Position numbers and translations under genes: made by a program | Notes under the pieces: generated by a model | Seen by the model: the letters and a program-made list of their open reading frames with translations, nothing else | The model's database searches: none | Told to the model about the DNA's origin: nothing | Shown: in pieces, positions 3,365-31,724 of the stretch | Position numbering within the stretch: the stretch's first letter is position 1 | Layout of the letters: every line of letters starts with the position of its first letter | From: a virus | DNA length: 31,724 bases | IMG/VR virus record: IMGVR_UViG_3300028835_000902 | Span: 1 to 31,724 of that record | Reading direction: 5' to 3' (one strand)

Positions 3365-3880
3365 CGCAATTTTCATAATTTGAAAATCTGTACCATCATA
3401 AATAATTTGGTACATTTTATCGGCTTCAATATTTCCGGCACTCAAAGCAGCTCCTGAATTTTTAACATCCTTACCTCCGACACTATTTATATCAATAGTT
3501 ACGGGTCCAGTGTTAGGGGATGCACTAGCAATGAACACGGCTCTCATCCCTGAAACATAAGCTGTTATAGCTGGTGTCATGGTTAATGTTAAATCATCAG
3601 CCGTCCCGGTAGCTGTTCCTGTCCAAACCATTGATTCTGATTGGACTTGTCCAAGATTTACAGAGTCTGCTGCATTTGAGCCAATAACTAAATTGATGAG
3701 TTTATTAGTACCCATCAATATATCACCAGTAACAACAGTCTGACCATCCCTAGATATGCTTTGTGTTAACATATCTATAATATCATTGATTAAAAGATTC
3801 ATCTTTGATTCTGAAATTATAGTAGATGCGACAAAATCAGGTACTGCCTTAACCGCCGTTCCAGATCCGTTTCTTGACAT
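3359..3880 (-). CDS. Phage tail-fibre-type protein
   Basis: This 173-residue protein opens with the pattern usual for short podovirus fibres: GTAVKAVPDFVASTIISESKMN-L-NDI--MLTQSISRDGQ, then TGDILMG-NKLINL--GSNAADSVNLGQVQ. The second part (ITAYVSGMRAVFIASASPNTGPVTIDIN) resembles the beta-rich repeats of fibre proteins with an N-A-G-like pattern. It lacks a long C-terminal receptor or lyase domain, so it may be a fibre base, with the repeat protein at 1192-2196 a candidate for host contact. It lies directly after the internal-protein genes, 2 bases from the one upstream, as in podovirus late operons. The fibre family assignment is good; the receptor is unknown. Confidence 0.75.
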   Translation of the reverse strand: MSRNGSGTAVKAVPDFVASTIISESKMNLLINDIIDMLTQSISRDGQTVVTGDILMGTNKLINLVIGSNAADSVNLGQVQSESMVWTGTATGTADDLTLTMTPAITAYVSGMRAVFIASASPNTGPVTIDINSVGGKDVKNSGAALSAGNIEADKMYQIIYDGTDFQIMKIAL

Positions 3881-8381: not shown

Positions 8382-8805
8382 AATTTAAAAATTTCCTTTG
8401 ATAATCAGGTTTTAACATACCTAATATTACTGCATGTTTATCTTTGCCGTAATTATGATTTAAAATAGCTTCTTGGACAAACCCTATGTGTTTCATGGTT
8501 TTCAAAGCTTTAATATTATCAACACTTATACTTAATAAAATCTTGAAGCAATCTAATTGATCATATGGGTATTGTAATAGTTTCCATATGATCTCTTTTT
8601 TTGCCCACATTGGACTAATAGCAGCCATACTCATTTGGATAATGCGAGCTTCAGGTTGATAATCATGATAAACCACACCTGCAATTAATTTAGAACCGCT
8701 TGAAACTCCGATAGCTACACAACACTCAAGCCTATGAAGACTATCAACTCTATCAATAACCCATTTTGTCACAAGTTTATCATGTCCATATAACAATTCA
8801 CTCAC
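8374..8805 (-). CDS. GNAT-like N-acetyltransferase-fold protein
   Basis: The 143-residue product has a GNAT pattern: a central strand region (LIAGVVYHDYQPEARIIQMSMAA), a helix after ISPMWAKKEIIWKLLQYPYDQL, a strand (CFKILLSIS), then the C-terminal signature VDNIKALKTMKHIGFVQEAIL. Proteins of this fold often sit beside the tail and internal-protein genes of podoviruses; their substrate is not known. The usual acetyl-CoA-binding Q/R-x-x-G-x-G/A is not clear, which may mean reduced activity or divergence. It overlaps the large tail gene upstream by 4 bp and the internal-protein gene downstream by 8 bp. Confidence 0.7.
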   Translation of the reverse strand: MSELLYGHDKLVTKWVIDRVDSLHRLECCVAIGVSSGSKLIAGVVYHDYQPEARIIQMSMAAISPMWAKKEIIWKLLQYPYDQLDCFKILLSISVDNIKALKTMKHIGFVQEAILNHNYGKDKHAVILGMLKPDYQRKFLNYG

Positions 8806-11800
8806 AACTGACCGCCTTTAATGAAAGTAAGATTTGTTGATATCCATGATGTGTTACTACTAGTACTGCTAATTCTAACTCGAACGCTACCTGATCGCCC
8901 ACGACCACGGACACCACGCCAACCTCTAAATATTATCCCTTCGGTTCCCCATACGCCAACACTCCATAAACTGCTACCCCATACGGCAGAATTTGGAGAG
9001 CTTGCTTGTGGAGAGGCAGTCGGCAACCGAATATTAAAATCAGTGTTAAAATCAACTGCTGCATTCGGATTCCCTGTACTTTCAAATATGGGTTCTACCA
9101 ATTTGAAAGCTTTTCTAACATTGACACTTTTAAAATATGAAAATGCCTGAATCGCATCGACTGCCACATTTGCGCCGTTATCTGATAAACCATCATCTGC
9201 TTTATACGTTTTTCCATCAAGTCCACCAAAAAACAGATTATCGTTAAGTAGTCCCCAACATAACGCATTCATCCCAGTGTATCGACAGGGTGCGCCTGTA
9301 ATCGTATTAAATACGTATTGATGGTATATATTGTCCTGCTGTGGCACGTTAAATAATAACTGAGTGCCTTTAGGATAGACAATGGGTTGCCACCCAAAAA
9401 CATTTTTGGAATCCCGTACAGAATCATTAACTGCTTTTGCTATCTGGTCCGACAATGCCACCAACCTAGATTGACTTCTATCAGTTGATAAAATAGCCGA
9501 TAAAGGTACAAATCCGTCTTGGGTAATAATCACAACATCAACACCAGCTTTAACTAGGCATCTCCTACCTATGGGCTTTCCAATACGAAACACACCAATT
9601 AATTGCCAAGTTGATGCAGAAGCAGGATCAAATCCGTTGTATACTATTGCTTCACCTTCGCTTGTGATAAAAACAGCCACATCATCCATGCCTTCACCAG
9701 AATCCCGTGTCCAAGTACCCATAGCCATGATAAAACCACCAAGACGGGAAATTCCTCCCAATGGGAATTCTGTAGCTGCACCACCAATGCTATTAACCGG
9801 AAGATACCATGCAGATAATGAACCTACTTCGCCACACCATAAACGCCGTTGATGAATATTATTCCATACAAGATTGGTAACAGTAGGACCAGTTATAGCA
9901 GGTGTAGTTCCCCACGTTGAACCATTATAAACAACTGGAGTATCCTCCCCGTTCATCAATGAAATGAATTGTCCCGCTGCTGTACTGATTTGGACATATT
10001 GCCAACGATTGTTTGAATGAAGACCAGGAGATCCCATATTATACTCAAAAATGGAATCGTTTTCTCCACCAAGCATAAATATTTTAGTACCGTCGTTATT
10101 GAAAACTATTCCTGTTGGATCAGTATCTTCTGAATATACTGATTTTGTAACTTGAACCGCTGATAATGTTGACAAATCGTACGCTGTACTCAGATCGTAT
10201 TCGTAAATTGAACTGTTAGTAGTGCCAATCATGAAAATTTTGGTACCATCGTCATTGAAAATTATCTCAGTTGGTCCCGTATCTTCCGAAGCTATGGATT
10301 TCGTTACCTGAACAACTGACAATGTAGATAAATCAAATGCTGTTGATAAATTGTATTCGTAAATAGAATCATTCTGACTACCAACCATGAATATCTTGGT
10401 ACCATCATCGTTGAATGCTATTCCTTCCGGATTACCATCTTCTGATTCTATGGATTTTGTTTCTTGAACTGCCGATAATGTCGATAGATCATATGCTGTA
10501 GATACATCATATTCATTAATTGCTGCTTCAGTTGTGTCTAGATTGTATTCATTAATTGAATCATTCTGAGCACCAATCATGAATATCTTGGTTCCATCGT
10601 TGTTGAATGCTATTCCATTTGGGAAACCATCTTCCGAATTTACCGATTTTGTCACCTGAACCGCTGATAATGTTGATAAATCATATGCTGTACTCAAATT
10701 ATATTCATTAATATTATCACTTCCTTGCCCAACCATAAAAATCTTGGTTCCATCGTTGTTGAATGCTATTCCTGTTGGTTGTGTATCTTCTGAAGTAACA
10801 GATTTCGTTACCTGAACTGCTGATAACGTTGATAAATCGTATGCAGTACTCAAATTATATTCAAAAATAGAATCAGTTTGATTACCAACCATAAAAATCT
10901 TGGTTCCATCGTTGTTGAATGCTATTCCTGTTGGTTGTGTATCTTCTGAAGTAACAGATTTCGTTACCTGAACTGCTGATAACGTTGATAAATCGTATGC
11001 AGTACTCAAATTATATTCATGGATGGAATCATTCTGGAAACCAACCATAAAAATCTTGGTTCCATCGTTATTGAAAGTAATGTCATATGGGAACGTATCT
11101 TCTGAAGCTACAGATTTAGTTACCTGCACCGCTGAGATACTGTTTAAATCAAATGCAGTACTCAAATTATATTCATGGATGGCGCCACTCACTTCTCCAC
11201 ACATGAATATCTTTGTACCATTATCGTTAAATGCTATTCCACTTGGAGTATTATCTTCTGAATTAACAGATTTAGTCACCTGAACCGCTGATAAACCGTT
11301 CAAATCATATGGAGTACCTAAACCATTAGCACCAACCAAAAACAATTTAGATCCATCATTATTAAAAATTATTCCACTTGGAGCAGTATCTTCAGAAGCG
11401 ATGGATTTAGTCACCTGAACAGAAGATAATGTTGATAGATCGTATGCGGTACTCAGATTGTATTCATAGATAGAATCGTTCTGGCTACCAACCATAAATA
11501 TCTTAGTACCGTCACCATTGAATATAATCCCTTCAGGAACCGTATCTTCTGCTGTGATAGATTTCGTCACCTGAACCGCTGAAAGATTTTCTAGATCGTA
11601 TCCAAAAATAGCAGTGCCGCCAGAAACAGGAGAACCTACCGCACCAGCGCTGGTAACATCATAAATACCACCAGAATTTGCACCGAACAATTCACCAACC
11701 CCAGACAAAGTGACGTACTCAATCAAAGTTTCAACATTGCCAATCATCCCAGTCGCATGTTCGGTGTATCCACGACGCATGATCACACGGTCAGTAGAAG

Positions 11801-11930
11801 GGAACCAATTGTCCAATTTTACAGCATTTTCAATCGGCATGTCAGATAATGCGTTGCGAGTATCCCACCCACCAGTTGGCGATTGGATAGCAACAGATGA
11901 ATTTGTTCTTCGACTTCCAATCGTTCGCAT
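8802..11930 (-). CDS. Tail / packaged-DNA stabilisation-like protein split by ten 52-residue repeats
   Basis: Residues 1-108 (AIQSPTGGWDTRNALSDMP, NWFPSTDRVIMRRGYTEH, GGIYDVTSAGAVG) and about 636-1042 (RWQYVQISTAAGQFISLMNG, RLWCGEVGSLSAWYLPV, a C-terminal WRGVRGRGRSGSVRV) form a protein typical of podovirus neck/tail modules, with a place like that of P22 gp10 or a tail tubular protein B. About 515 residues would be its normal size. Between GSPVSGG and LHSNNRW lie ten repeats of about 52 residues like those at 1192-2196. Repeat 2 is shortened and repeat 7 has a 12-residue extra piece. The insert falls between two beta-rich parts and keeps the frame, so a decorated but working virion protein is likely. 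The gp10 label is by position and general pattern only. Its end overlaps the GNAT gene by 4 bp. Confidence 0.7.
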   Translation of the reverse strand: MRTIGSRRTNSSVAIQSPTGGWDTRNALSDMPIENAVKLDNWFPSTDRVIMRRGYTEHATGMIGNVETLIEYVTLSGVGELFGANSGGIYDVTSAGAVGSPVSGGTAIFGYDLENLSAVQVTKSITAEDTVPEGIIFNGDGTKIFMVGSQNDSIYEYNLSTAYDLSTLSSVQVTKSIASEDTAPSGIIFNNDGSKLFLVGANGLGTPYDLNGLSAVQVTKSVNSEDNTPSGIAFNDNGTKIFMCGEVSGAIHEYNLSTAFDLNSISAVQVTKSVASEDTFPYDITFNNDGTKIFMVGFQNDSIHEYNLSTAYDLSTLSAVQVTKSVTSEDTQPTGIAFNNDGTKIFMVGNQTDSIFEYNLSTAYDLSTLSAVQVTKSVTSEDTQPTGIAFNNDGTKIFMVGQGSDNINEYNLSTAYDLSTLSAVQVTKSVNSEDGFPNGIAFNNDGTKIFMIGAQNDSINEYNLDTTEAAINEYDVSTAYDLSTLSAVQETKSIESEDGNPEGIAFNDDGTKIFMVGSQNDSIYEYNLSTAFDLSTLSVVQVTKSIASEDTGPTEIIFNDDGTKIFMIGTTNSSIYEYDLSTAYDLSTLSAVQVTKSVYSEDTDPTGIVFNNDGTKIFMLGGENDSIFEYNMGSPGLHSNNRWQYVQISTAAGQFISLMNGEDTPVVYNGSTWGTTPAITGPTVTNLVWNNIHQRRLWCGEVGSLSAWYLPVNSIGGAATEFPLGGISRLGGFIMAMGTWTRDSGEGMDDVAVFITSEGEAIVYNGFDPASASTWQLIGVFRIGKPIGRRCLVKAGVDVVIITQDGFVPLSAILSTDRSQSRLVALSDQIAKAVNDSVRDSKNVFGWQPIVYPKGTQLLFNVPQQDNIYHQYVFNTITGAPCRYTGMNALCWGLLNDNLFFGGLDGKTYKADDGLSDNGANVAVDAIQAFSYFKSVNVRKAFKLVEPIFESTGNPNAAVDFNTDFNIRLPTASPQASSPNSAVWGSSLWSVGVWGTEGIIFRGWRGVRGRGRSGSVRVRISSTSSNTSWISTNLTFIKGGQL
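10029..11603. repeat. Ten tandem 156-bp coding repeats inside the tail gene
   Basis: The repeat unit is 156 bp (52 codons). Copies are diverged except for 10729-10863 and 10885-11019, which are identical over 135 bp exactly one period apart, indicating a recent duplication or gene conversion. A 73-bp run at 10297-10369 is also identical to 1457-1529 in the other repeat gene. Confidence 0.9.
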
Positions 11931-11972: not shown

Positions 11973-12272
11973 TTATGTTCTACTTACTAAAACACTTTCC
12001 CATTGTCTATGGCGTTCAGAAATTAAAATCACATGTACTATATTTGCAACTTCATCAATATCATATACAACAATATAATTATCAAATGTGAAAAAATTAA
12101 CACCATTGAAAATTGTACCAGTGTTAGGAAAAGAACTTAAAATATTAACTGTTCTTTCTTTTAAAGAAATAGCAAACTTTATGGCATTTTCTGGACTGTT
12201 TTGAAAGATATATTCAATGATTTCATCAAAATCATCATCTGCTGACTTTGTAAACCGAACTTTATATTTCAT
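11973..12272 (-). CDS. ParE/RelE-family toxin
   Basis: The 99-residue product has the ParE-type pattern: an opening strand and helix (YKVRFTKSADDDFDEIIEYI), a second helix with NAIKFAISLKERTVNILSSFPNTG, then NYIVVYDID and VANIVHVILISERHRQW at the end. Members of this superfamily inhibit gyrase (ParE) or cleave mRNA on the ribosome (RelE); the sequence does not decide between them. The ATG directly follows the TGA of the partner gene. The pair is wedged between the adaptor and the large tail gene, inside the virion operon. It could stabilise the element or the operon, or be a hitchhiker. Confidence 0.8.
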   Translation of the reverse strand: MKYKVRFTKSADDDFDEIIEYIFQNSPENAIKFAISLKERTVNILSSFPNTGTIFNGVNFFTFDNYIVVYDIDEVANIVHVILISERHRQWESVLVSRT

Positions 12273-12557
12273 TCAGAACATCTTTTCAATCATAGCTATT
12301 TTTTTATCAAAATAATCTGCATCAGCAAGAAATGTCTCACCAGTAGCTATTTGTTTTCGTCCTAATTCCAAACGCTCAAGAAAAATTTTTTTATCCATTA
12401 TAGTTAACTTTTTCAAATTATCATCAAATTTACTCACTTCATCTGTATATGAAATCTGTTTCTCTGAAATATGACCTAATAAAAATCCCAACTTAGATTC
12501 TTCTATAGTTTCCAACCTCTTTGCAATCTTGGAAGAAAATTCTCGGTCCACTCTCAT
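12273..12557 (-). CDS. Probable antitoxin partner of the ParE-like toxin
   Basis: I chose ATG 12557 (MRVDREF), because GGAG is 9 bases upstream; a GTG at 12572 is also possible but would include that site. The 94-residue product is charged and helical (EFSSKIAKRLETIEES, DNLKKLTIMDKKIFLERLELGRKQI). It sits immediately upstream of the toxin with abutting stop and start codons, the usual antitoxin-toxin order. The stretch ERLELGRKQIATGETFLAD resembles the C-terminal toxin-binding helix of ParD-like antitoxins. A clear N-terminal DNA-binding motif is not visible, so the antitoxin call rests mainly on context. Confidence 0.65.
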   Translation of the reverse strand: MRVDREFSSKIAKRLETIEESKLGFLLGHISEKQISYTDEVSKFDDNLKKLTIMDKKIFLERLELGRKQIATGETFLADADYFDKKIAMIEKMF

Positions 12558-12602
12558 GATATAAGACTCCACATTAAAATAATCTGTCGTACTTAATTAC
12601 TT

Positions 12603-23635: not shown

Positions 23636-25000
23636 TTAAGAATATGGAGGAACATAACATCTCTCAATTTCAACAGGTCTCATCTTTTTGTACTTTTCAA
23701 TATTATGAATAGCCCAATATTTTCTTTTATTTATTTGACACTCCAACCCTAATTTAAATTGTTTCATTGTTTTATTAATTATCATTACAGAAGGTATTTT
23801 AGCTGAACCATGCCTAGAATTAACACTAATTTTCAGATGATTTTGAATATCAATACCTCTTACAATATCTTTGGCGAATATTCCTTTTTTAGAGTCAATC
23901 AATGATTCAATTATTTCATCTATTGAATCATCAGTAATTGATGCATTAAAAGATAATCTATGGGAATCCAAAAGTTCTTCTAATCCAGAGTCAGGCCACC
24001 ATTGCTCACCATTAATATAAGCATTCCAAGCTTCAGACCATGCAGAGTTTACAATTTGTTCATCTGGCATTTTTATATTCTTGATATCAAGGGGCCAATA
24101 TCGCCTGTTTCCCGTATAGTCCTTTAAAAAATTCCGTTCATTAGTTGATCCTACAAATATAGTTCTCCGATGGAACCGCTCGGTTACTCTTCCAAATGGC
24201 GGACGTAATACGTCTTCTGACTCAGAAAGAAATGCTTTAATTCTAGCATTGTCGCTCTTGCAAAAACTACTATCGACTTCTCCAATTTCATTTATCCAAT
24301 ACATCATACATTTTAAAACTGAATCTTTGTCTGAAGGGTCTAAAAACTGACCATCTTTAAAATAAATTTGCAATTGTTCTGGTAACATGTTTTTAAAAAA
24401 CTTAGTCTTTTCAATACCTTGTTTCCCTACCAGGATCATCATGTATTCAAATTTTGCTTTGGCTTCTTCATTAGTCGTGCATGATGCATGGTCAGCAGCA
24501 GCACACGCACCAATCATGAACATTCTGAAAATTTTATTTCTAATATTTTTACTATCAGGTTCTACACAAAGTGAATTAGCTAATGATTGTATGCAACTAC
24601 CACTAGAAGAAGGTAGATTTTTTAAATATTCAACAACTGGGTTTATGGCTTTTTCGTAACCAATAGCAATGGTTTGATTAACAACATTTACTGCTGGCAA
24701 TCTGTTTAATATTGCAAGATTGATAATTGTTTCGACGTTGACAGTATGCAATCCATCCATAATGTCGAGTCCAGGAATATTAATAACCTGATTTTTTGTT
24801 ATTTGATTGTAGTTAGACGTTATTTTGTACTTGCGAAACATATATTTAAGATTACTTATTACACCGAGCAATGCTGAATTTTGATTACCGGGTTTTCTTC
24901 GGTGTGGGAAATTTGCAGGATGAATTGCAATCGATATGTCAGTTTTCGATTTTACACGAGGTAGTGGTGGTGGTGGTGGATCGTGTAATTCTATTTGCAT
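23636..25000 (-). CDS. VapE-family P-loop ATPase with an altered Walker A motif
   Basis: I chose ATG 25000 (MQIELHDPPPPP) over TTG 25018. The 454-residue product matches virulence-associated protein E: an N-terminal NPVVEYLKNLP, a P-loop at residues about 192-199 (GKQGIEKT), a Walker B region with MYWINEIGEVD, then ARIKAFLSESEDVLRPPFGRV and RTIFVGSTNERNFLKDYTGNRRYWPL. In the P-loop the Gly before the catalytic Lys is Glu, which should disturb nucleotide binding. VapE-type proteins act in replication of phages and phage satellites. It is the first gene of the leftward operon, back to back with the primase operon. It may be inactive, or it may have changed role. Confidence 0.85.
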   Translation of the reverse strand: MQIELHDPPPPPLPRVKSKTDISIAIHPANFPHRRKPGNQNSALLGVISNLKYMFRKYKITSNYNQITKNQVINIPGLDIMDGLHTVNVETIINLAILNRLPAVNVVNQTIAIGYEKAINPVVEYLKNLPSSSGSCIQSLANSLCVEPDSKNIRNKIFRMFMIGACAAADHASCTTNEEAKAKFEYMMILVGKQGIEKTKFFKNMLPEQLQIYFKDGQFLDPSDKDSVLKCMMYWINEIGEVDSSFCKSDNARIKAFLSESEDVLRPPFGRVTERFHRRTIFVGSTNERNFLKDYTGNRRYWPLDIKNIKMPDEQIVNSAWSEAWNAYINGEQWWPDSGLEELLDSHRLSFNASITDDSIDEIIESLIDSKKGIFAKDIVRGIDIQNHLKISVNSRHGSAKIPSVMIINKTMKQFKLGLECQINKRKYWAIHNIEKYKKMRPVEIERCYVPPYS

Positions 25001-25107
25001 GCAAAATATCCACTTCAAATTATATATAAAATTATGTTCAAGGCTAACATTATTCGGTTTACAGTGTCAATTTATAATTTCATAGTGTTCAATCTTCGGA
25101 ATTTCGG

Positions 25108-25159
25108 TAATCGAATTAATGCATTAACATGTTTGACTACTGCATTAATCGAATTAATG
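25108..25159. promoter_or_regulatory. Two 14-bp direct repeats, possible operator of the leftward operon
   Basis: TAATCGAATTAATG occurs at 25108-25121 and 25146-25159, 38 bp apart. Each contains or adjoins short palindromes (TTAATGCATTAA beside the first; CATTAAT-CGA-ATTAATG at the second). They lie 110-160 bp upstream of the VapE-like start, where a repressor or activator of the late operon could bind. No convincing -35/-10 pair for the leftward operon was found. Confidence 0.45.
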
Positions 25160-25240
25160 GTTAATTAATAATGATTATGCTGTCTACTTTTAGTTGTATT
25201 TCTGCGGTTTTAATATGAAAAATAGAATTTCAATTGGGTG

Positions 25241-25544
25241 TGCCTCAGCTATGCCTCACATAAAATTTTCAATGTGAGGCAGCATAATGCTTTTAAATTT
25301 ATGCATTTACATTCCTATGCCTCACATGCCTCACATAAAATGGGTAATTCTCTATATATGTAAATTTCACCATTTTGTTCATTATTATATTAACATTATA
25401 TTTTTGTTATTTATATGCTTTTTTCTTCTCACACATAGTTATCATTTTATGTGAGGCATGTGAGGCATAGGAATGTAAATGCATAAATTTAAAAGCATTA
25501 TGCTGCCTCACATAAAATTTTCAATGTGAGGCATAGCTGAGGCA
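25241..25544. repeat. Long inverted repeat: two 102-bp arms around a 100-bp AT-rich spacer, origin-like
   Basis: The arms are 25241-25342 and 25443-25544. They are perfect reverse complements except for a 12-bp core. In each arm GCCTCACA and TGTGAGGC flank the core TAAAATTTTCAA (25253-25280 and 25505-25532), and the core reads the same way on the plus strand in both arms instead of being inverted. The box TGAGGCA occurs eleven times within 25241-25553, six times on the plus and five on the minus strand. With the 9-bp iterons and the divergent replication genes this is the best candidate for a replication origin; it is also a regulatory region. Confidence 0.85.
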
Positions 25545-25560
25545 TATGAGGCATGTGAGA

Positions 25561-25611
25561 AGTTCAGAAAGTTCAGAAAGTTCAGAAAGTTCAGAAAGTT
25601 CAGAAAGTTCA
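25561..25611. repeat. 9-bp iterons (AGTTCAGAA), five full copies and a partial sixth
   Basis: AGTTCAGAA repeats without interruption from 25561 to 25605, followed by AGTTCA. The array ends exactly where the -35 box of the rightward promoter begins. A protein bound here could both start replication and control the promoter. The copy number may vary by slippage. Confidence 0.85.
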
Positions 25612-25640
25612 TTGACAAACAAGTGCTGATTTTTTATAGT
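25612..25640 (+). promoter_or_regulatory. Near-consensus sigma70 promoter of the replication operon
   Basis: TTGACA (25612-25617) is followed by a 17-bp spacer and TATAGT (25635-25640). The -35 is perfect and the -10 matches 5 of 6 bases. It faces the ribbon-helix-helix and primase genes, with the first start codon 36 bp downstream of the -10 box. Confidence 0.8.
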
Positions 25641-25675: not shown

Positions 25676-25873
25676 ATGAAAAAAATAAAAAAGGCTTTTA
25701 CTAGCAGAGTTGATATTGAAATTGCTGAAGAATTTAATAATATAGCTAAAAAACTAGGAAAAAAACCGACTCAATTAATTCGTGAATTTATTATAGGCAT
25801 TGTGGAAAATAGAGTTAAAATAACCCATCATGAAAGCACAAATTTAGAAGTTCATAATAATATATACACTTAG
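25676..25873 (+). CDS. Ribbon-helix-helix (CopG/Arc-type) regulator
   Basis: The 65-residue product fits the RHH fold: a basic N-terminus and strand (KKAFTSRVDIEIAEEF), helix A (NNIAKKLGK), a turn (KP) and helix B (TQLIREFIIGIVENR). Such dimers bind short palindromic operators, or iterons in plasmid copy control. It is the first gene after the iteron-promoter-operator array, with AAGGA 11 bases before its ATG. It is therefore the likely regulator of the replication operon. The primase start follows after 18 bp. Confidence 0.8.
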   Translation: MKKIKKAFTSRVDIEIAEEFNNIAKKLGKKPTQLIREFIIGIVENRVKITHHESTNLEVHNNIYT

Positions 25874-25891: not shown

Positions 25892-28258
25892 ATGAAAGGA
25901 ATTGCAGAGATAAAATCAACAGGTTTAGGGTGTTTTCCGTGCTATCAACGTAAAAATCCAATGATAGATAAATGGAAAGAAAATGCATTTTTACCCGAGG
26001 ATAAGTTACCAAAGTCAAACATTTGGGGTTTGTTAGTACCCCCTCGAATTTTGATAATTGATTTAGATCTGTATAAAACCAATGTAAAACTGAACAGGAA
26101 GATTACACGTGAAGATGCTGATAAAGCTTTAAATTGCAAGCTACCGTGGGACCAGTCGTTAATCCAAAACACACAGAGTGGTGGCGAACACCATGCATTT
26201 CTTGTTGATTCTGTTGATTATCCAGAAAATATGAAACAGCAAAATGGTACGTTGCTTGAAGGTTTGGATACCAAAGTAGCTGGGAAGGGATATATTTGTT
26301 TTGGGGAAAATTATACTGAGATGGGATCAGGGATTATAGGATTGAGTAACCCTGATGGGTTTCCACGGCTCCCAGATGCTGCGTATGACGTTCTGAAGCG
26401 TGATAAGCATCAACATGACCTACCACCACCTGTTCCAACCATGAAAGCCGAGCGTGACAACCATGAACATCCACCTTCAATCAGAAATACCGATTTAGAC
26501 AATAGTTGGATCAAGGAAGCGTTAGCCAAGATTCCTCCCAATTGCAGTTGGGAGGATTGGCGTAACGTTGGCTTTGCTTTAAAAAATGGATTTGGTAATG
26601 ATCCTGAAGGATTTGAACTTTGGGATCAGTGGAGCAGAGGTGATTTTCACGGTAATGATATCCCAGAAAAATATATAGAGCAAGATATGTTTAAAATATG
26701 GGATAAATTTAAGCAGTATGTTCCAGGTGGAATAACGATATACAGTATTTTTCGCACTGCTAAGATGAATAGATTTAGACCCATGAAAATGGATGCAATA
26801 TGTGAAGTACTTGGCAAGTGCGAACAAGTAGATCAATCTAAACATCCAGGAAATGTTATTATTCATGTTGATAAGATTCCACCGTGGCAAATTGCAGACC
26901 GTCCGACCGAAGGAAAGAAAAAAACTAGGTTTTCCGATGAAGAGTGTGTTTTTGAGATCTTTAAAGGTCCATATGGCGATAGATTTAAGGATTTTAATGG
27001 TACTCCTCGCTGGTGGTCAGGAAGAGAATGGGAATACATAGGTAAAAAAGACCTGAATAATTTTTTATTTGACTCTCTACCTAAAAGATATCGAGATATG
27101 AACCGTGTTAATCAAATACGGGAGGCTTTTTTATGTCGAATGCCTGATACTGGTATTTTGAAACCATCTAAAAAGGTATTTTTTCTTGATGGGGTATTAG
27201 ATTTATATTCTGGTGAATTTGTCCAGCACAAAAAGAACAATCATAATATCGGTACACTGCCAATAAACTACAAAGATAAAACAGGGATTATTGAGTGGCT
27301 TAAGTTTTTACATAGTACACTTGAGGAAGATGAGATTAGAAAGCTGCAAGAGATTATGGGTTTTTATCTAGTACATCATAATCTTGGTATAGAAAAATTT
27401 ATTGCTTTCACCGGAGCCACTAGGGCAGGTAAGGGTATAATTTTAAGAATTTTGACAGCTATTTTAGGTAGTGGATTTTGTGAATCGTTTAACTTTGACA
27501 TGGTAGGGACACCTCAGGGACATGATGCGTTATGGCAATATCAGGTTTTAATAGATCCTGAAGCCAAGGCTCCGAAGAGGGAGGAGAAAGTATCTACTTT
27601 GCAGACGATACAGAAGGTGACATCGAACGAACGAATAAGTTCCAAAAGGTTGTATGAGAATCAATATAAAAACGGCATAGTAAATTGTAAGTTAATTATA
27701 GCGTGTAATAATTTACCGATATTTTCAGATGACAGTGGAGCATCGGCAAGTCGTATAGAGATTTTGAAATTTAGCAAGAGCTTTTTAGGTAAAGAGGATT
27801 TTAATCTTTATGAACGGTTAGAGAAAGAATTGCCTGGTATTGCTCACTGGGCTATTGAAGGCTTGCAAAGATTGATAGCTAACAACGGAGCATTTACAAA
27901 GAGTAAATCTAGCATAAAAGAGATGAAAGATTTAGAAAATTTATCGAAACCGTTGAATCCATTTATTGAAAATTATTTAATTTTTGATCATGCCTACAGT
28001 GTCTCAATTAAGGATTTATATGCTGCTTACAAGCAATATTGTGGAGATAATAAAATGCGGATTTGGAGTGAAATTATGTTTAGAAAGAAATTGGAAGCTA
28101 CTTTATTAAGTAAAAATTTAGACTGGTGTCAATACAGAGAAAATGGAGTTAAAATTAGAGGAGTAAAAGGCGTGAAGATTATTGATTCAGTATTTATACC
28201 TGGAGTATCTCCATCATCTGCACCATTACCACCAACTCCTATGGTTGATCAGTCTTAA
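25892..28258 (+). CDS. Primase-polymerase / SF3 helicase fusion (phage-plasmid replication protein)
   Basis: The 788-residue product has four parts. Residues 1-170 are a prim-pol domain with the catalytic acids in IIDLDLY (57 and 59), the motif QSGGEHHAFL (95-104) and KVAGKGYICFG. Residues 204-292 are a PriCT_2-type domain (WIKEALAKIPPNCSWEDWRNVGFAL). Residues 345-420 form a linker (FKGPYGDRF, RWWSGREWEY). From about 460 an SF3/D5-type helicase follows: GATRAGKG (508-515), IDPEAKA (554-560), LIIACNNLP (601-609) and SRIEILKF (620-627). The P-loop ends in Gly where Ser or Thr is usual, as in some D5 relatives. It would start and unwind replication at the adjoining origin-like repeats. Residues 331-418 recur as a separate gene at 29450-29773. 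Confidence 0.9.
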   Translation: MKGIAEIKSTGLGCFPCYQRKNPMIDKWKENAFLPEDKLPKSNIWGLLVPPRILIIDLDLYKTNVKLNRKITREDADKALNCKLPWDQSLIQNTQSGGEHHAFLVDSVDYPENMKQQNGTLLEGLDTKVAGKGYICFGENYTEMGSGIIGLSNPDGFPRLPDAAYDVLKRDKHQHDLPPPVPTMKAERDNHEHPPSIRNTDLDNSWIKEALAKIPPNCSWEDWRNVGFALKNGFGNDPEGFELWDQWSRGDFHGNDIPEKYIEQDMFKIWDKFKQYVPGGITIYSIFRTAKMNRFRPMKMDAICEVLGKCEQVDQSKHPGNVIIHVDKIPPWQIADRPTEGKKKTRFSDEECVFEIFKGPYGDRFKDFNGTPRWWSGREWEYIGKKDLNNFLFDSLPKRYRDMNRVNQIREAFLCRMPDTGILKPSKKVFFLDGVLDLYSGEFVQHKKNNHNIGTLPINYKDKTGIIEWLKFLHSTLEEDEIRKLQEIMGFYLVHHNLGIEKFIAFTGATRAGKGIILRILTAILGSGFCESFNFDMVGTPQGHDALWQYQVLIDPEAKAPKREEKVSTLQTIQKVTSNERISSKRLYENQYKNGIVNCKLIIACNNLPIFSDDSGASASRIEILKFSKSFLGKEDFNLYERLEKELPGIAHWAIEGLQRLIANNGAFTKSKSSIKEMKDLENLSKPLNPFIENYLIFDHAYSVSIKDLYAAYKQYCGDNKMRIWSEIMFRKKLEATLLSKNLDWCQYRENGVKIRGVKGVKIIDSVFIPGVSPSSAPLPPTPMVDQS

Positions 28259-29342: not shown

Positions 29343-29449
29343 AATCAATAGAAAGACAATATTAACAGTCAAAGTGAAAGTGACCCTGTAGCTATACCTG
29401 GGGTATCGTCTGCACCATTACCACCAACACCAATGAAAGGATGACTGAA

Positions 29450-29773
29450 ATGACTGAAGAAGAAGATTTTTTCAATGTGGATAATATCCCAACGCAGGTA
29501 ATTGCAGACCATCCGATTGTAGACAATAAGCATCCAAAATTAGTTGACGGTCAATGTGCAAAAGCTATATTAAAAGGTCCATATGGTGATAGATTTAAAC
29601 TTTTTAGTGGGAGACCTCATTGGTGGACAGGGAAAGAGTGGGAATATATGAATGAAAGAAACTTGTTTAATTTTATAACTGACTCTTTACCTAAAAGGTA
29701 CAGAAATATGAGTCGTATCAAACAAGTGCAAAAAATGTTTTTATATCGAATGCCTATTTCGTCCAGGATATAG
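29450..29773 (+). CDS. Stand-alone copy of the primase linker region (truncated paralogue)
   Basis: I prefer ATG 29450 (MTEEEDFF), which is about 8 bases after AAAGG; ATG 29441 directly abuts that site. The 107-residue product matches residues 331-418 of the primase-helicase: QVIADHPIVDNK against QIADRPTEGKK, KGPYGDRFKLFSGRPHWWTGKEWEY against KGPYGDRFKDFNGTPRWWSGREWEY, and DSLPKRYRNMSRIKQV against DSLPKRYRDMNRVNQI. It then stops at MPISSRI where the helicase would begin. The DNA before it (29392-29437) also copies the 3' end of the primase gene. It may be a remnant, or a small protein that competes with or binds the primase. The frame is open and the ribosome site is kept, so it could be expressed. 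Confidence 0.7.
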   Translation: MTEEEDFFNVDNIPTQVIADHPIVDNKHPKLVDGQCAKAILKGPYGDRFKLFSGRPHWWTGKEWEYMNERNLFNFITDSLPKRYRNMSRIKQVQKMFLYRMPISSRI

Positions 29774-31162: not shown

Positions 31163-31724
31163 CTAGAAATTTACACGAATTTTTGCATTGGCGGAATGGG
31201 AAAGAAAATCAGGTCGAATACCCGCATCATAGCCCACACTGAGGGCATATGTACCGTCTACCGTCATTACTGGCATAGTCAATACCTACACCGATAATGC
31301 CACCCATGGCAGATGGTTTAACACCAGTTGACATAGGGATAATGCTACCATTACTCACCCAAGATGAATTTACCACAGCTTGTTCTCTAGTCATATCCAA
31401 ATCTGCAATCAAACGCAACTTAGGAATAACCACACCGTTCTCTGTTGACATCTTGGTCGCTATGGTTGTACCAGCTTGAATATTAAACATATCCATACTG
31501 TTAACATCAACTTTTAAAGCACCTATGCCAGTTTCAGAATATTCTTCCGGTGACACATGTGAATAAGACATGCTGATTTTTGGTGTGATTGCCATAGAAC
31601 CCGTATCCATTGGTACACTGAAACCAACACCGGCTGAATAAATGTCAGTGCCGAATGAACCTATCACCTGACCACCTAGTCCAGTACGTTTTGTATCACT
31701 CGTTGAATGACCATATGCAACAGA
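31163..31724 (-). pseudogene. Autotransporter C-terminal beta-barrel, frame broken by a 7-bp tandem duplication
   Basis: The frame enters from the right edge (VAYGHSTSDTKRTGLGGQ) and shows alternating barrel strands: IYSAGVGFSVPMDTGSMAI, KISMSYSHVSPEEY, KLRLIADLDMTREQAVV, IIGVGIDYASNDG. At 31252-31265 the heptamer TACCGTC stands twice in a row, which shifts the frame to a stop at 31227. With one copy removed the protein continues TYALSVGYDAGIRPDF and ends AKIRVNF at 31163, with the terminal Phe that marks outer-membrane barrels for insertion. About 185 residues of the barrel are in the window. It points in the same direction as the adhesin at the left end and could be a tandem paralogue. Confidence 0.8.

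Follow-up and report, generated by a model that had tools for sequence, protein, structure and literature searches.

Mirrored boxes around an AT-rich centre form a putative replication origin of a P22-like phage, conserved in geometry rather than in box sequence

Introduction

Iteron plasmid origins place repeated boxes beside an AT-rich region and the initiator gene. The P4-family primase-helicase of phage P4 also initiates at repeats, and the origin of this phage uses two separate sites. For SaPI Rep and for Cch2 of SCCmec it has been reported that the origin iterons are bound via the C-terminal domain, apparently as two hexamers (PMC7581432). Inverted repeats have been studied for a second reason, namely their own rearrangement. 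In yeast, template switching homogenises the arms of inverted repeats and inverts their spacers, with spacer inversions described for arms longer than 9 bp (PMC8604942), and chloroplast DNA commonly shows inverted loops between palindromic stems (PMC2903610).

Here we describe an element in a stretch of viral DNA of 31,724 nucleotides (IMG/VR record IMGVR_UViG_3300028835_000902), referred to as the window. The window is part of a P22-like phage, as indicated by the P22 coat and portal families and a terminase. A preliminary description, made from the letters alone, had pointed out an inverted repeat with cores that are not inverted and had proposed an origin or control site. We consider it likely that positions 25241–25553 are an iteron-type replication origin of this phage, acting by the mechanism proposed below.

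Anatomy of the element

The two arms of the element (Table 1) are 94% complementary (96/102) and lie 100 nt apart. All six mismatches fall inside a hairpin loop: the arms agree at 35 of 35 box positions and at 61 of 67 non-box positions, the six exceptions being the loop. The claim that the arms are perfect reverse complements except for their core was therefore accurate, coordinates included. This core had been given as 12 bp between 8-bp flanks; a flanked core is indeed present, but it really consists of a 10-bp stem (TGCCTCACAT/ATGTGAGGCA) and a 10-nt loop. On the plus strand the loop reads AAAATTTTCA in the left and the right arm alike, AAAATTTTCA and TGAAAATTTT being exact reverse complements. 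Since the loop runs the same way in both arms, the 30-mer TGCCTCACATAAAATTTTCAATGTGAGGCA, composed of TGCCTCACAT-AAAATTTTCA-ATGTGAGGCA and present in both palindromic box pairs, forms a direct repeat within the inverted repeat.

Table 1 Features of the element and its neighbourhood (positions in the window)
Feature	Position	Strand	Remarks
VapE-like ATPase/helicase, divergent neighbour	23636–25018	−	
Left arm of the 102-bp inverted repeat	25241–25342	+	
Outer boxes, left	25241–25258	−	at 25241 and 25252, 11 bp apart
Palindromic box pair, left	25252–25281	+	10-bp stem; loop AAAATTTTCA at 25262–25271
Inner box doublet, left	25318–25333	−	TGCCTCA at 25318 and 25327, 9 bp apart
AT-rich centre, putative duplex-unwinding element	25334–25451		118 bp between the inner boxes
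Right arm, 102 bp	25443–25544	−	96/102 identical as reverse complement
Inner box doublet, right	25452–25467	+	TGAGGCA at 25452 and 25461, 9 bp apart
Palindromic box pair, right	25504–25533	+	identical 30-mer, same orientation; loop (non-inverted core) at 25514–25523
Outer boxes, right	25527–25553	+	at 25527, 25538 and 25547; spacings 11 and 9 bp
Tandem array, 5.8 perfect copies of AAGTTCAGA	25560–25611		immediately right of the putative origin
65-aa ribbon-helix-helix-like ORF	25676–25873	+	before the primase also in L044 and L046; weak fold matches only
P4-family primase-helicase, 788 aa, proposed initiator	25892–28258	+	

The stem is simply two boxes facing each other. Eleven TGAGGCA boxes are spread across 25241–25553, whereas in shuffled versions of the 800-bp region preceding the primase no 7-mer occurs more than five times. 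All eleven had already been counted, although the last one (25547–25553) lies just outside the interval originally drawn (25241–25544). Between the inner boxes the AT fraction rises to 0.85 over 25345–25424. The AAGTTCAGA tandem array was not seen at the corresponding place in the related locus L044 introduced below, and this 9-bp array (25560–25611) may be the operator of the small ORF's product.

Folded as a single strand, the element reaches −114 kcal/mol, as opposed to −29 ± 4 for shuffles. No other independent inverted repeat with arms of at least 25 nt within 2 kb was found in the whole window. An Rfam search of the element gave no match, and among 50,697 phage records there was no DNA match to 25.0–25.9 kb.

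Gene neighbourhood

To the left of the element the genes run leftward (portal, terminase, VapE-like ATPase), to its right rightward, with the 65-aa ORF followed by the 788-aa primase-helicase, whose gene starts ~340 bp downstream of the boxes. The GC skew, which the preliminary description had proposed to inspect around 25.2–25.6 kb, changes sign and has its minimum at ~25 kb, at the element. As transcription also diverges here and the skew follows gene orientation, this is weak and non-independent evidence for an origin.

The primase-helicase scores just above the curated cut-off of TIGR01613 (primase_Cterm; 109.3 versus 108.7 bits) and also passes PriCT_2 (55.8 versus 22). A search of its sequence against solved structures returned nothing at E ≤ 0.01; the fold search did match. 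The best fold match of the AlphaFold2-predicted structure (mean pLDDT 76.5) is the SaPI5 primase-helicase 7ola_C (Z 30.6, rmsd 5.7), with 397 aligned residues between model positions 325 and 772, the C-terminal domain included. Ranked lower are ASFV PrimPol, poxvirus D5/E5, NrS-1 and the AAV Rep40 and papilloma E1 helicases. Within the predicted model, the helix-helix-strand-strand order of residues 689–763 fits a winged helix. The model of the small ORF is modest (pLDDT 70.5), and its ribbon-helix-helix (RHH) fold matches have E >1.

Further genes in the window were observed along the way. A 110-aa ORF at 29441–29773 repeats residues 323–418 of the primase-helicase (52% identity, E 6e-35) and, judged by this similarity, is a partial duplication of that gene in the same genome. 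Between tail genes, at 11973–12572, lies an ORF for a ParE-type toxin (Pfam E 2.5e-10), preceded by a small ORF. Tail-region proteins at 8802–11930 and 1192–2196 contain many near-identical YDLSTLSAVQVTKSV...DGTKIFMVG repeats with beta-propeller family matches, and the copy number of these repeats could vary between phages. Near the window end, at 31227–31667, lies an autotransporter beta-domain ORF (Pfam E 1e-13), which is either carried by the phage or part of the host DNA bordering a prophage.

Relatives with the same geometry and other boxes

A primase profile search brought in 54 loci. The loci L044 and L046, with primases 69% and 41% identical to that of the window, have 13 boxes of other sequence in a mirrored layout upstream of the same two genes. 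The plan is common to all three phages: the inner doublets are 9 bp apart, the outer boxes 11 bp apart, and an AT-rich centre of 97–118 bp separates the inner boxes. The box itself reads TGCCTCA in the window, TGTCCAG in L044 and (T)GCCACAG in L046 (TGCCACAG). The centres of the window and L044 are homologous (83/122 columns identical, z 9.4) and have the strip TATATTAACATTATA-N-TTTTGTTATTT in common, whereas on the left side the sequence separating the inner from the outer boxes shows no similarity (z 0.7). Homologous centres with different boxes therefore mean that homologous putative origins have swapped their boxes and kept their geometry.

Unlike the 102-bp arms of the window, mirroring in L044 and L046 is confined to the box arrays and short stretches, and neither has an equivalent of the window's loop pair. 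Both loci contain palindromes of their own. A perfect 26+1+26 palindrome lies left of the putative origin in L044 (3235–3287), of which the window has only a resembling half (~25158–25190), and in L046 the right half holds a palindromic box pair (3574–3602; 12-bp stem, 5-nt loop) without a left counterpart.

Mirrored boxes of further sequences (GACTACA, CGTTACA, CGTCACA and others) were found in Aeromonas AeroV_348, Alteromonas R9Y1/R9Y2, Oceanospirillum PD0307 and several IMG/VR contigs, the boxes of some relatives (L016, L051, L052) having been picked after looking. They stand in opposite orientation on either side of an AT island, 94–118 bp apart, before a small DNA-binding gene and a primase. 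Primase identity is ~25–35% for AeroV_348, R9Y and several IMG/VR contigs. The presence of a 7-mer alone does not discriminate inverted from direct arrangements, as 20 of 40 upstream regions contain a shared inverted 7-mer and 18 of 40 a direct one; the signal lies in the AT-island subset. No clear box system was seen in L017, L019, L047–L049, L054–L056 and others, and many very distant primase loci showed no mirrored boxes. A first genome-contig scan with the primase yielded no relative, and the vapE scan added nothing close. None of the loci from a capsid scan (alphaproteobacterial and other prophage-like) had the vapE-origin-primase module within the stretches examined.

The preliminary description had named relatives with unrelated sequence and no boxes at this place as evidence against it. 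What the relatives have are unrelated box sequences, yet boxes in the same geometry.

A putative origin and its initiator

Together with the gene context and the switch in GC skew, the mirrored boxes that relatives carry upstream of the same kind of primase-helicase uphold the suggestion of an origin or control site, the comparison with relatives weighing most. How might such an origin work? We propose that the TGAGGCA boxes are the binding sites of the neighbouring gene's product, the primase-helicase, which probably contacts them by its C-terminal domain, with one initiator assembly on each mirror half. By analogy with initiators of the SaPI/SV40 type, the two assemblies would open the AT-rich centre of 118 bp and be loaded back to back, leading to bidirectional replication.

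Which of the two proteins would read the boxes? In the small ORF the residues T9-S10-R11-V12, expected to be the DNA-reading residues of an RHH protein, are invariant in three phages with three different boxes. This makes its product a poor candidate for the box reader and points to the primase-helicase. Against this, the C-terminal domain of the latter is not exceptionally diverged, with 60% identity versus 84% in the helicase and 52% in the linker.

It is unlikely that the boxes are instead operators at which a repressor, the small RHH-like protein or another, controls the divergent vapE and primase units, with no origin involved. Such a role would suit a divergent intergenic region with a small DNA-binding ORF directly downstream and a promoter-like TTGACA-17-TATAGT at 25612–25640, but the 11 promoter-like sites are not clearly above the 6.6 ± 3.3 of shuffles, and the presumed reading residues do not change with the boxes. 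Moreover, the small gene is elsewhere annotated as another transcriptional regulator or DNA-binding protein, and the mirrored AT-island geometry stays. Operator and origin roles could coexist. Two further candidates were considered. Phages whose terminase proteins differ still have boxes flanking their replication genes, which makes a pac site unlikely. Nor do we accept a mobile element (MITE), since relatives hold at this very site a copy with matching geometry but another sequence.

Origin of the non-inverted core

The core is real, and the question is how it came to read the same way in both arms. In the scenario that we favour, polymerase template switching between the self-complementary arms would recently have homogenised the two, leaving a near-perfect inverted repeat with 102-bp arms; another switch within the hairpin would have inverted the loop in one arm. 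The signature of a microinversion is there: an exactly reverse-complemented loop of 10 nt enclosed by a 10-bp stem. If the arms were homogenised and the loop inverted in this way, the flip would have arisen as a side effect of the arms of the origin folding on each other. Among the data compared it was found only in the window virus and hence looks like an incidental rather than a conserved design feature; the non-inverted core is thus probably incidental. Both a site-specific and a hairpin-mediated inversion had been suggested at the outset. The hairpin-mediated one stands as the simplest account and matches the yeast observations (PMC8604942), while the site-specific one found no support, as no recombinase was recognised among the window's main ORFs.

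An account without any inversion, in which two independent 2-bp indels added TG on one side and removed CA on the other, seems improbable. The minimum-energy fold pairs AAAATTTT with small bulges, and as AAAATTTT is self-complementary, a shift of 2 nt mimics an inversion. This account, however, needs two events in sequences that are by chance complementary and mirror-placed, whereas one inversion accounts for all six differences. Very unlikely is an invertible switch, with the 30-bp palindromic core of each arm as the substrate of a site-specific recombinase. Inverted repeats of 10 bp do flank the core in both arms, and the relative orientations are opposite, but these repeats are merely the facing boxes, and the core orientation is identical in a second contig. 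The palindromic 30-mer, with any loop, is absent from all other viral contigs searched, and a scan of the main ORFs of the window, which is possibly an incomplete genome, recognised no member of a recombinase or integrase family. Finally, although short reads cope poorly with inverted repeats this long, an assembly artefact in which one arm or core was copied from the other is very unlikely, since the arms match without interruption over no more than ~71 nt, L044 and L046 have analogous arms, and the separate 16-kb contig IMGVR_UViG_3300009488_000143, with one mismatch to the window across 14.9 kb, contains the element letter for letter in its interior, both cores included.

The right arm holds a leftward-facing TTGAAA-16-CATAAT (25524–25497), and the flip abolishes the mirror copy that the left arm would otherwise contain. 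It may be that the flipped loop switches promoter direction; with promoter-like sites not clearly enriched in this region, this is speculative and a lead only.

Implications

The wholesale turnover of boxes between homologous putative origins is more interesting than the flipped core and deserves follow-up. One tentative explanation, on the unlikely side, is that initiator and boxes co-evolve fast at a fixed geometry while template switching homogenises the arms. Incompatibility among phages that infect the same cell might be the driving force, and the promoter switch in the loop would come in addition. The geometry kept would be the box spacings of 9 and 11 bp and the AT-rich centre of 94–118 bp.

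Geometry, not sequence, would define a class of tailed-phage origins of P4/SaPI5-type primase-helicases, so that such origins could be found where no box is conserved. Pairs like the window and L044, with homologous centres and different boxes, lend themselves to asking how specificity shifts jointly in an initiator and its dozen boxes, and whether a new box reaches both arms by template switching.

Comparison with known systems

As in SaPI and SCCmec Cch2, short repeated boxes adjoin a primase-helicase of the same (predicted) fold. The SaPI origin lies just downstream of rep (PMC7581432), whereas the boxes of the window are upstream of the small ORF and the primase. Also unlike SaPI, they precede a small DNA-binding gene, form strictly mirrored arms and belong to a tailed phage. 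The resemblance to the origin of the phage P4 alpha protein (ori/crr) lies in the P4-family primase-helicase, which passed TIGR01613, but one composite site takes the place of the two sites of P4. With iteron plasmid origins the element has in common that an AT-rich region and an initiator gene adjoin the repeated boxes; it differs in that the boxes are inverted around this region and the proposed initiator is itself a helicase. Like hairpin-associated microinversions and template-switch spacer inversions (PMC8604942, PMC2903610), it combines an inverted loop with perfect flanking inverted repeats of at least ~10 bp. Unlike the known cases, this proposed microinversion is deduced from the two arms of one molecule and lies inside a putative phage origin.
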